From: Phycisphaerales bacterium
GTDB lineage: Bacteria; Planctomycetota; Phycisphaerae; Phycisphaerales; UBA1924
Assembly: GCA_020847175.1 (NCBI GenBank)
Contig: JADLCM010000005.1
Location: 62,001-126,000 of the forward strand
Direction of reading: 5' to 3'
DNA length: 64,000 nt
The position numbers and the translations under genes were made by a program. This document shows positions 43,290-47,585 of this stretch, piece by piece. The notes below the pieces were generated by a model, which saw nothing but the letters and a program-made list of their open reading frames with translations, did no database searches and was not told the DNA's origin. Each line of letters starts with the position of its first letter. The stretch's first letter is position 1.

Positions 43290-46061
43290 ATGTTCCGGCA
43301 CTCCCGGCCGTGGTCGCGCGCCCTCACCCCGCTCGCGTGGTGTGCGTGCGCGGCAGGGATGTCGGCCGTGGCAGGGGCGGCGCCCCCGACGGGCCCGCGC
43401 GAGCGGGCGCCGGCCGCGCTGGTGCAGGCGGCGCCGCCGGTGCATCGCCCGCGGGCATCGGGGCGGCTGGTGCGGGCCTTTGACTTTGAGGAGCAGCGGA
43501 TCAACGACACGCCCGTGCCGCTCCACTGGCACGTGGCGTTGCATGATCCGCCCCGGTATGAGCGTCCCGGGTTTCCGATCTGGAATCTGCCTCGCCTGGA
43601 CTACACGGTCGCTCATGGCGGCCAGGGGTCGGTGCGGCTGCCGGTGCAGGGCGGATCTTCCGCACTGGGGCTCGATCCGGGAGTAGTCCCGGTCTTTGCA
43701 GGGGCGGACTACCGCGTGAGCGCCAGGGTGCGCACGGAAGGTTTGGAGCACGCGCGGGCGGGCCTGGTGGTGCGGTTTCTTGATGAAGAACTGCGCCCCC
43801 TTGAGGGCTCCACGCGGCGCAGCTCGCTGGTGACCTCCGAGAGCGGGTGGACGACGATTGAGGCGCGGGCCCCGGGGGCGTTTGAGCACGCGGCGTACCT
43901 GCAGATCGAACTGCAGGTGCTGCAGGCGCGCGAGTTTGCCCCCGTGGTGCTGGGCGCGCACGAGGTGCGGCCCGAAGACCTCGCCGGGGCGGCGTGGTTT
44001 GATGACGTCGAAGTGGTCCAGGCGGCCCGGGTCGAAGCCCACCCGGCGGCGCCTTCCGGCGTGTTTGCAGGTGATGCGCCGCCCGCCATCTCCATCTTTG
44101 TCAAGGACCTGACCGGCGAACCGATGACCGCGACCCTGCGTGCCTTCGATTCTTCGGGCGCTGAGGTGCTTCGGCACACGATCGAGATTGAACCCGGAGG
44201 GGTGCGCACGACATGGTCGCCGCCCCTGCCGGCCTTCGGGTGGTACCGGCTGCTGCTTGAGGTTGATGCGGCGGGGGTTCATGTGGGTTCGAGCCAGTGC
44301 GACCTGGCATGGCTCAGCCGACCGGACCAGTTGCGCCCGGGTTCAGAGTCTGACGCCGCGATCGGCGTGATGCTTGATGTGCCGTCACCCGAGGCTGACG
44401 GGGTGATTCCGGGGCTGCTTCGCGCGCTGCGCCTGCGCCGGGCGACGCTGCCGATCGCGCTGGAGGCCGAGGCGGGAGCGAGCGTGGCCCGTCTCTCCCC
44501 GCTTGTCTCGGCGCTGCTCGGCCAGTGGTGCGATCTCACCCTGGCGCTGCCGCCGGAGTGTGCGGCGGACGTGCCGGAGGCGGCCGAGTGGTGGGCGACG
44601 TTCGGGCGACCCGTTGTCGAGCGGTTCTCGCAGCGCGTGACGCGGTGGGCGATCGGCGAAGCCTCGGTGGAAGACGCGGTGTGGCTCTCGATGGGCCGCG
44701 GGCTGGCGGCCGGCGAGGCCAGGGTGCGTGCGTCGGCTCCGTCGCCGTCGATTGTGATCCCGTGGGACGCATGGACGGCGCCGACCCCGTCGCTGGGCCA
44801 GGGGCACGTGCTGTCGATTGCGCTCCCCGCCGCGCTCTCGCCCGAGCACCTTGCGGAGGTGGTGAAGGCGTGGATGGGGGCCGGCGGGCCCGGCGCGACT
44901 TTCGTGCTGCACGCGATTGACCCGGCGCTGTACGGCGCGCGCGAGTCGGCGGCGGATCTTGCGAAGCGCGCGGTGCTCGCGTGGAGCGCCATCGACGCGG
45001 AATCGGGCGCGCGGGGGATGACCCTGGCCTTCGCGCAGCCCTGGCGTGAGACCGCGCCGGGAGTGCTCGAACCGGGCAGCGAACTGCCGGTGGTCCGCAC
45101 CCTCAGCGAGCAGTTGGAAGGGCGCCGGGTCGTCGCCTGGATGACGATGTATCCCGGGGTGCGCTGCGCGGTGCTCGGGCCCGCGCGAGAGAACCCATCG
45201 CGACGCGGCCCGGCGCTGGTCGTATGGAACGAGCGATCGACGCGGGGCGCAATCGACCTCGCGCTGGCCCGATCCGAGGTGCGCCTGACGGACATCCGCG
45301 GCAACGTGAGCACGCTCTCACCGGAGGCGGAGCCCGGCTCGCGCGTGCTCAACTACCGCCTGCCCATCTCCGATGAGCCGGTGTTCGTGGAGGATGTGGA
45401 CCTCGAACTGCTCCTGCTTCAGGCGTCGTTCCGGTTCGACCCTCCGACGCTGCCCTCGATGAACCGGCCCGTGGATCGGCGCATCGGGTTCGACAACCCG
45501 TGGGGGTCGGCGATCACGGGGCGCTTCTTCATCATCAGCCCCGGCACTCGGGGGGGCGAGATCGACCCGACATGGGACATCGCTCCGCGCTCCGGGTACT
45601 TCACCGTGCCGGCCCACGGAACTCTGGACGCGCCGCTTGCGCTCGCCTTCAGCCCGCTCGAATCCGCGGGCACGCGTGAAGTCGTGGTGGATGTCGAGCT
45701 CTCGGCGGAAGAGGAGTACGGCGTGGTGCGCCTGCGGGCCGCAGCGGAGCTGGGAGTTGAAGATTTCACGGTTGACCTTGCCCTCAAGCGATCGCCGACA
45801 GCCTCCGGCCCCGACGCGACGTTTGAGGTCACGGTGACCAATCTTGCCGCGGAGCCGCTGGACCTCCAGGTGATCGTGTTCGCGGGTGACGAGGTGGGGC
45901 GGCGCACGAGTTCGATTTCGAGCCTTGATCCCGGGCGCGACGCGATGCGGCGGTTCCCCTTCCCCGGGGCCGCGGAGGCGCTGCGCGGCCAGACGATGTA
46001 CGTCTCGGTGCTCGACCGGGCCAGCGGCGCGCGCCTCAACACGTCGCTCACGATCGAGTGA
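43290..46061 (+). CDS. Large secreted protein of unknown function
   Basis: 923 residues. Signal peptide near residues 12-30 (PLAWCACAAGMSAVAGAA). Residues 55-260 look like a carbohydrate-binding-type beta-sandwich (YRVSARVRTEGLEHARAGLVVRF, followed by a Trp-Phe-Asp-Asp phrase WFDDVEVVQ common in such modules). A central region (about 270-700) is mixed alpha/beta, and the C-terminus is beta-rich (TFEVTVTNLAAEPLDLQVIV). No catalytic motif was recognised. It sits 48 bp before the fused sheath-like gene in the same direction, so co-transcription is likely. Confidence 0.82.
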   Translation: MFRHSRPWSRALTPLAWCACAAGMSAVAGAAPPTGPRERAPAALVQAAPPVHRPRASGRLVRAFDFEEQRINDTPVPLHWHVALHDPPRYERPGFPIWNLPRLDYTVAHGGQGSVRLPVQGGSSALGLDPGVVPVFAGADYRVSARVRTEGLEHARAGLVVRFLDEELRPLEGSTRRSSLVTSESGWTTIEARAPGAFEHAAYLQIELQVLQAREFAPVVLGAHEVRPEDLAGAAWFDDVEVVQAARVEAHPAAPSGVFAGDAPPAISIFVKDLTGEPMTATLRAFDSSGAEVLRHTIEIEPGGVRTTWSPPLPAFGWYRLLLEVDAAGVHVGSSQCDLAWLSRPDQLRPGSESDAAIGVMLDVPSPEADGVIPGLLRALRLRRATLPIALEAEAGASVARLSPLVSALLGQWCDLTLALPPECAADVPEAAEWWATFGRPVVERFSQRVTRWAIGEASVEDAVWLSMGRGLAAGEARVRASAPSPSIVIPWDAWTAPTPSLGQGHVLSIALPAALSPEHLAEVVKAWMGAGGPGATFVLHAIDPALYGARESAADLAKRAVLAWSAIDAESGARGMTLAFAQPWRETAPGVLEPGSELPVVRTLSEQLEGRRVVAWMTMYPGVRCAVLGPARENPSRRGPALVVWNERSTRGAIDLALARSEVRLTDIRGNVSTLSPEAEPGSRVLNYRLPISDEPVFVEDVDLELLLLQASFRFDPPTLPSMNRPVDRRIGFDNPWGSAITGRFFIISPGTRGGEIDPTWDIAPRSGYFTVPAHGTLDAPLALAFSPLESAGTREVVVDVELSAEEEYGVVRLRAAAELGVEDFTVDLALKRSPTASGPDATFEVTVTNLAAEPLDLQVIVFAGDEVGRRTSSISSLDPGRDAMRRFPFPGAAEALRGQTMYVSVLDRASGARLNTSLTIE

Positions 46062-46109: not shown

Positions 46110-47585
46110 ATGTCGCGCCCCCACTGCTCGCCCCTCGAGTTCGGCATGACGTTCGGCAAGGGGCGGGGCGACGCGCGCGACACGCCCCCGTTCCGCATCC
46201 TGGTGCTGGGCGACTTCGCGGGTTCGGCGCGCGAGCCCCTGGCGAAACGAACGCCGAAGAGCGCGGACATCGACACGCTCGATGACGTGATCCGCGCTGT
46301 GGGGCCGCGGGCGGCGTGCACGATCGCAGGGGTGTCGGCCTCGGTGCCTTTTGCTTCGCTCGATGACTTTCATCCCGATGCGCTCTTCCGGCGCCTGGGG
46401 GCGTTCGCATCGTGGCGTGAGCTCCGGGCCCGGCTGGCGAACCCCGCGACCGCAGCAGGGGCCGAGGGCGAGGCGCGGGCGCTCCTGGGCATGCCCGCCG
46501 CGGCGGCCCCCGGCGCGTCGGACGTACGCCCCGATGCGGGGAGCGATGTCATGGCGCAACTGCTCGCGGGCAGCGCCAAGCCCAAGAGCCAGGGGTTCGA
46601 TGCCGACGCGTTCATCCGCTCGGTGGTCGGGGGTGGGGCGGGCGCGCCGGCCGCAGCGCCCGGCGTGCTCGCGGAGCTTGACGGGCGCCTGAGCGCCCTG
46701 ATGCGCCAGGTGCTGCACGCGCCGGCGTTTCAGCGGGCCGAGGCGGGGGCGCGCGCACTGCACACGCTCATCACGGGTCTGAGCCTCGATGAAACCCTGA
46801 CCCTGAGCGTCCTCGACGTGTCGCGCGAGGAGTTGATCGCCGATGCGCTTTCCGCCGCGGACCCGCGCGGCACGGCGCTGGGCAGACTCATCGCGGGCGA
46901 GGCTCGGCTCGGCGATGCATCGCAGCGCTGGGCGCTTATCGTGTGCCTGGAATCTTTCGGGCCGAGTGATGCGGGCCTGCTGGCGCGCCTGGCCCAGGCG
47001 GCCCAGGCGGCGGATGCGCCCCTCGTCGCCGGCGGGCAGCCCGCCCTGGTGCGTGCGCCGTCGCTGCGCGGGCGGGTCGATGTTGACGCGTGGACGCTGA
47101 AGGCCGAGCCGGGGCACGTCGAAGCGTGGAACGCATTGCGTGCCGCCCCCGAAGCGGGTTCGGTGGGGCTGGCGCTGCCGCGCGTGCTGCTGCGCCAGCC
47201 TTACGGCGCATCCTCGGACCCGATCGAGTCGTTTGCCTTCACGGAGATCGTTGATCTGGGCGCGCCCGGGGCGGACGACCACCTGGTGTGGGGCTGCGGC
47301 GCGATTGCGCCGGCGCTCGTGCTCGGGAGCGCGTTCAGCGACGCGGAGTGGGAGCTGGACATCAGACTCGGCGGGGAGGTTTCGGGGTTGCCGGTGGTGA
47401 GCTACCAGGTGTCGGGCAAGCCCGAGGCCAAGCCCTGCGCGGAGGCGTGGCTGGCGGACCGGGCGATCGAGCGCATCACGGGCGAGGGGTTGATCGCAGT
47501 CGCCTCGGTGCGCGGGCGCGATGCCGCCCGCGTGTCGCCGCTCCAGAGTCTGGGGGGCGGGCGGCTTCGCGCGTGGTGGGCATGA
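46110..47585 (+). CDS. Single-chain TssB-TssC-like contractile sheath protein, C-terminally short
   Basis: 491 residues. Residues about 24-125 match type VI sheath small subunit TssB: FRILVLGDFAGSA, DIDTLDDVIRAVGPR, FASLDDFHPDALFRRLGAF and LRELRARLAN-type phrases (here WRELRARLANP). After an Ala/Gly/Pro linker, residues about 195-491 match the large subunit TssC: RLSALMRQVLHAPAFQRAEAGARALHTLI, DETLTLSVLDVSREELIADAL, GLALPRVLLRQPYG, SDPIESFAFTE and VSPLQSL. Family TssC normally continues about 130 residues past that SLQ-type motif; here the frame stops 11 residues later. Not accompanied by ClpV, Hcp, VgrG, TssE or baseplate genes. Probable sheath-derived protein; assembly as a functional sheath is unproven. 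Confidence 0.8.
   Translation: MSRPHCSPLEFGMTFGKGRGDARDTPPFRILVLGDFAGSAREPLAKRTPKSADIDTLDDVIRAVGPRAACTIAGVSASVPFASLDDFHPDALFRRLGAFASWRELRARLANPATAAGAEGEARALLGMPAAAAPGASDVRPDAGSDVMAQLLAGSAKPKSQGFDADAFIRSVVGGGAGAPAAAPGVLAELDGRLSALMRQVLHAPAFQRAEAGARALHTLITGLSLDETLTLSVLDVSREELIADALSAADPRGTALGRLIAGEARLGDASQRWALIVCLESFGPSDAGLLARLAQAAQAADAPLVAGGQPALVRAPSLRGRVDVDAWTLKAEPGHVEAWNALRAAPEAGSVGLALPRVLLRQPYGASSDPIESFAFTEIVDLGAPGADDHLVWGCGAIAPALVLGSAFSDAEWELDIRLGGEVSGLPVVSYQVSGKPEAKPCAEAWLADRAIERITGEGLIAVASVRGRDAARVSPLQSLGGGRLRAWWA

Follow-up and report, generated by a model that had tools for sequence, protein, structure and literature searches.

The locus raises the question of what role a type VI secretion system (T6SS) sheath protein can have when it carries both sheath halves on one chain, ends early and lies apart from other T6SS genes. 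The window, the whole 64,000-nucleotide stretch of DNA that was analysed, corresponds to C5:62001-126000 in the genome of a Phycisphaerales bacterium (3.18 Mb in 70 contigs). At 46110..47585 (+) of the window, the ORF list and Pfam place a TssB-TssC-like short fusion gene that begins with ATG and encodes 491 aa. The gene stands alone, between a 923-aa gene upstream and a convergent universal stress protein (USP) gene on the other side. The upstream gene (43290-46061, +) has no Pfam match and apparently bears no relation to T6SS. None of the window neighbours (the USP, a glycosyltransferase and the protein that Pfam does not match) is T6SS-related, and tblastn with 11 T6SS core and spike proteins matches only the fusion gene in the window, as an earlier note made from the sequence alone had stated.

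The two halves on one chain, also described in that note, are borne out by Pfam matches to VipA and to the N-terminal domain of VipB. The TssB/VipA-like half spans residues 27-124 (46188..46481, +; PF05591, E 1.9e-9, above the cut-off), and the TssC/VipB-like half spans residues 187-480 (46668..47549, +; PF05943, E 2.7e-39) and corresponds by structural match to sheath domain 2. The closest solved structures by sequence are TssC chains (phmmer). The limits first drawn for the halves are slightly off, as phmmer matches the fusion to Myxococcus TssC from residue 138 onwards, indicating that the TssC part includes a segment equivalent to the TssC N-terminus; this match takes in a short linker motif that resembles the helix read by ClpV. 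The fusion misses the equivalog thresholds of both NCBIfam models, scoring 123.7 against a cut-off of 271.5 bits for TIGR03355 and 32.7 against 97.25 bits for TIGR03358.

The TssC half is indeed shortened. The chain ends 10 residues after the VSPLQSL segment, at the point where PF18945, the gpW/gp25-like handshake domain at the VipB C-terminus, begins in TssC, and Pfam finds no PF18945 in the 491-aa fusion. The TssC of the same genome (496 aa) is ∼31% identical to the fusion over residues 145-475 and has PF18945 at 381-491, ∼110 residues more. The family-typical C-terminus, residues 472-491 (AARVSPLQSLGGGRLRAWWA; 47523..47582, +), is defined by conserved residues and structural alignment; in an alignment of 67 family sequences W490 is nearly invariant, and S480 and L486 are conserved.

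Structure prediction agrees with this architecture. The AlphaFold model of the window protein, built with 67 family sequences, reaches a pLDDT of 88.7 and a pTM of 0.85, and that of a Desulfobacterales member 83.3 and 0.82; in both, the TssB half is folded, the linker is uncertain and the TssC half is folded. In the window protein, the TssB half contains strands at 28-34, 67-72 and 75-80 together with helices (pLDDT 80-98), and the low-confidence linker that joins the halves covers residues 126-182 (46485..46655, +; pLDDT about 47-75 in blocks 131-180). In VIA comparisons the best matches of the model are T6SS sheaths, TssC1 (5n8n) with a Z of 31.5 and VipB (3j9g) with a Z of 29.4, and its residue 491 aligns to residue 398 of about 490 in VipB. 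Single-chain phage and eCIS sheaths match the model over residues 25-491 with Z of about 14-16, which shows the TssB half lying against the TssC half in the manner of one-chain sheaths. The sheath fold that the earlier note had put forward for checking is thus predicted for the full chain, and in the model sheath domain 2 is intact while the handshake domain is lacking. In the Pseudomonas aeruginosa sheath, strands of the TssB N-terminus and of the TssC end form the handshake (PMC5807055). The component missing from the fusion is the TssC part, and many relatives retain an alternating hydrophobic N-terminal strand that resembles the TssB arm.

The fusion had been called an orphan, a description that does not hold for the genome. 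Separate tssB and tssC genes, together with the other core T6SS genes sought, are present elsewhere, the finding that the earlier note had named as the one to refute its reading: tssA, tssB, tssC and hcp lie in a row on contig C25; tagJ, tssE, tssF and tssG on C39; clpV, vgrG and PAAR on C19; and tssK with a tssM-type protein, whose tssM match falls below the cut-off of its model, on C3. The C25 TssC combines PF05943 with PF18945 and is the sole PF18945 match in the genome. Essentially the whole T6SS seems to be present, though scattered, with TssJ and TssL outside the gene set sought. Its genes are split over at least four loci, unlike those of relatives such as genomes G384 and G368, which have compact clusters.

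A GTDB genome scan yielded 127 relatives; the 80 retained come from Pseudomonadota, Acidobacteriota, Desulfobacterota, Verrucomicrobiota, Gemmatimonadota, Nitrospirota, Rokubacteria and Planctomycetota, although a few labels of metagenome-assembled genomes may err. The relatives are mostly 450-530 aa long with a common end point, and PF18945 is found in none of the family members scanned with Pfam. The window protein is almost certainly a member of an old fusion family in at least eight phyla. In a core tree, the fusions form one side of a branch that separates them from TssC and a second TssC paralogue with an SH-aLRT of 99, rising to 100 when two roseobacter fusions are added, in quick trees of the shared core that were built without bootstrap and do not include the published 1,684-aa TssCL itself. 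The roseobacter fusions group with sequences from Planctomycetota and Eleftheria in a clade of seven rows (support 98-99). One gene, in genome G124, had its start trimmed for alignment; its extended 952-aa reading holds no additional Pfam domain. Throughout this widespread family the shortened fusion is the usual form, and the truncation is ancestral and not a product of decay because the shortened form makes up one clade across phyla. The presence of the same architecture in 70-odd independent genomes rules out a recent local fusion or an assembly artefact. A phage origin was also rejected, as a phage collection gave only two weak TssC-type matches.

The family keeps company with T6SS. Full-length fusions occur in 17 of 392 Planctomycetota genomes; all 17 have TssK, compared with 81 of 392 overall (hypergeometric 5e-13, ignoring kinship), and all 17 have PF18945/canonical TssC. 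None of the 392 genomes carries a fusion without TssK. In the 50 genomes reached through other loci, canonical TssC is present in 47, so that it accompanies the fusion in 64 of the 67 genomes tested; the three genomes without it hold 2.3, 2.8 and 3.5 Mb of sequence. Conversely, 64 of the 81 Planctomycetota genomes with TssK have no recognisable fusion (families f16, f25 and f29), so the fusion is an optional component that goes with certain T6SS lineages.

Linkage to T6SS genes repeats in many lineages. In Desulfobacterota the fusion gene lies between clpV, which precedes it, and vgrG, which follows it. In Oxalobacteraceae a DUF4280-vgrG-FHA-tssK run is transcribed divergently from the fusion gene, which has clpV, tssG and tssF on its other side. 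In Leisingera and Qingshengfaniella it lies between tssH/clpV and vgrG inside a T6SS cluster annotated as complete. There it goes under the name ‘contractile sheath large subunit’, which is what RefSeq calls the plasmid-borne relatives examined. Such linkage, which the earlier note had proposed to look for, is absent from the window genome, other Planctomycetota and Acidobacteria, where the fusion lies apart from T6SS; in Acidobacteria, its neighbours are housekeeping genes.

The linker of the fusion is variable across the family, with a consensus of LLDxxL or xFxxLLGG exemplified by GSLLDQII and DFASLLGG. The part of TssC that ClpV recognises is an N-terminal helix, namely LLDEIM in VipB, LLDEII-type in H2 and H3, and EFASLL in H1 (PMC4239648); in Escherichia coli TssC1 the helix is DSVYASLFEKINL (PMC5048182). 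Binding of E. coli TssC1 to ClpV1 has been measured by microscale thermophoresis, and TssC peptides have KD values of 26-39 uM. In the window protein, the motif is VMAQLLAG (46548..46571, +), placed by the family alignment, a short predicted helix at 147-152 and the class concordance with TssC. It is in place before the VipB domain but weaker than the motifs of most relatives, and as a short linker motif it should be read with the caveat that LxxLL-type helices are common. The motif class is the same as that of the cognate TssC in 57 of 60 fusion-TssC pairs (Fisher 2.7e-15), with class rules written post hoc and TssC taken from the same genome, in cis where there were several. Two of the other three pairs have no clear motif, and in the third (L113) the fusion motif is GLLDAIL, which is class I, so that this mismatch is an artefact of the pattern matching. 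One relative, in genome G291, has no clear linker motif. As the fusion tree requires only about two changes of motif class, the concordance mainly reflects co-inheritance with the T6SS subtype and not sixty independent events. In P. aeruginosa, the EFASLL-type H1 helix is dispensable for ClpV1 binding (PMC4239648), and class-II motifs, including that of the window protein, may therefore have another partner.

Similar helices also occur outside the linker. Planctomycetota relatives have ELAALL-type tails, and two roseobacter fusions (L219:12459-15647 and L220:12033-15764) have N-terminal extensions of 500-665 aa with 17-33 acidic DDLDALLGGLD-type repeats, the likeness of which to the ClpV helix was judged by eye, and a conserved C-terminus, MDAxLxALLxDL. 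Strict repeat matches in the two N-terminal extensions number 14-32 compared with 2-7 expected in shuffles.

The best explanation, tentative and held at somewhat less than even confidence, is that the fusion is a T6SS accessory protein, a non-polymerising sheath mimic that docks on ClpV or the sheath and controls recycling. Because the handshake would be impossible without its domain, the fusion would not build sheath. As a soluble mimic, it would instead dock on ClpV, and perhaps also on sheath domain 2/3, and the docking would set the timing or speed with which the contracted sheath is recognised and disassembled. Two modes can be envisaged, in which the mimic would either recruit ClpV as an adaptor or hold it back as a competitor, and relatives with up to about 30 similar short helices may have higher avidity for the same partner. 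A sheath decoy, one of the roles suggested from the sequence, survives as a version of this sheath mimic, though not as the decoy of a lost system. A bolder form, in which handshake-less sheath mimics act as a dedicated hub that binds ClpV through one to about thirty TssC-like helices and gates sheath recycling, is rather doubtful; if true, it would add a control layer to T6SS that has not been described before.

The main rival, an unlikely one on present evidence, is a specialised protomer that would sit at the sheath end, either the start at the baseplate or a distal cap, by way of domain 2/3 contacts and, for want of the handshake domain, would stop or start polymerisation. The predicted single-chain domain 2 is intact with TssB strands packed as in the sheath, many relatives keep the TssB-arm-like N-terminal strand, eCIS, which are among the structural matches, use several sheath paralogues, and some of these T6SSs have a second full TssC paralogue. 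However, the missing domain is the one that makes the tube and handshake contacts, and neither a ClpV-type motif nor long repeat arrays would be expected in a cap. An improbable alternative is that the fusion is a substrate or scaffold for modification of T6SS proteins. S-adenosylmethionine (SAM) methyltransferases of three families (PKMT-type, TPR-methyltransferase and MTS/DUF7782) are encoded no more than 4 kb away from the fusion at 28 of 93 loci (L043:3874-5655, L072:12088-13458, L100:8199-9875 and 25 further loci), and a GNAT gene directly adjoins it in four loci of Desulfobacterota type; such enzymes would act on the fusion or be recruited by it, but their genes are absent at two thirds of the loci, the window included. 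Slightly less probable again is a minor subunit of the ordinary sheath with no regulatory role, a possibility raised for TssCL of roseobacters (PMC9515649) and compatible with the sheath fold. Against it, PF18945 is absent from the window protein and from every Pfam-scanned member, which would leave no handshake acceptor or donor strand. Very improbable are the readings along the lines of the earlier note, in which the fusion would be left over from a lost contractile system, as a degenerate relic or a decoy, or would serve an injection or scaffold system independent of T6SS. The locus is isolated here, and the search of the window gave no gene for a tube, baseplate or spike, but the genome has its own T6SS, the family forms a single clade in many phyla, with uniform length and invariant residues, and TssK-free occurrences are lacking among the 392 Planctomycetota genomes. 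A relic or orphan contractile injection system was rejected on the T6SS and the family conservation together.

Several known systems come close to the window protein. This kind of TssB-TssC fusion is already on record for roseobacters as TssCL, a 1,684-aa protein with two VipA domains that is encoded within the T6SS1 cluster and was reported in 2022 as restricted to Alphaproteobacteria (PMC9515649). Like the window protein, TssCL combines VipA with the VipB N-terminal domain on one chain beside separate tssB and tssC, and the two roseobacter fusion cores nest in the clade of the window protein. The window form differs in its length of 491 aa, its single VipA domain, the lack of arrays, the location away from T6SS and the cross-phylum group to which it belongs; by the sequences collected here, the fusion family is wider than the Alphaproteobacteria-only report. 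A search of the literature, mostly non-subscription journals, gave no account of the compact form, the cross-phylum clade, the defined truncation or the pattern of motifs. Canonical TssB/TssC (VipA/VipB) share the domain 2 fold with the fusion, in which a segment resembling their ClpV-type motif is also in place; the fusion differs in its joined halves, absence of PF18945 and separate clade. The sheaths of pyocin R2, PVC and AFP resemble it in that one chain spans the domain 2 fold (fusion residues 25-491), but they keep the C-terminal polymerisation domain and are 8-15% identical to the fusion. TagJ/HsiE1 has a comparable accessory role proposed between ClpV and the sheath (PMC4239648), yet is a TPR/ImpE protein with an unrelated fold, one of which is present in the window genome.

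The clade suggests that many T6SSs have an accessory part that has been missed, and raises the idea that a sheath look-alike may tune the recycling of the sheath by ClpV. In annotation, counting VipB matches as sheath genes leads to miscounted T6SS loci.

Two further sheath variants emerged from the comparison. In genome G221, a full-length TssB-TssC fusion of 649 aa (L056:2834-4780, +) with PF05591, PF05943 and PF18945 lies near tssF; it shares with the window protein the presence of both halves on one chain, but keeps PF18945 and groups with TssC on the tree, which makes it an independent fusion event in which the handshake domain was kept. The second TssC paralogue, ∼540 aa long and with PF18945, directly follows tssC in several Planctomycetota T6SS clusters (L042:5403-7019, L064:9209-10819 and L065:9137-10462) and forms its own clade.
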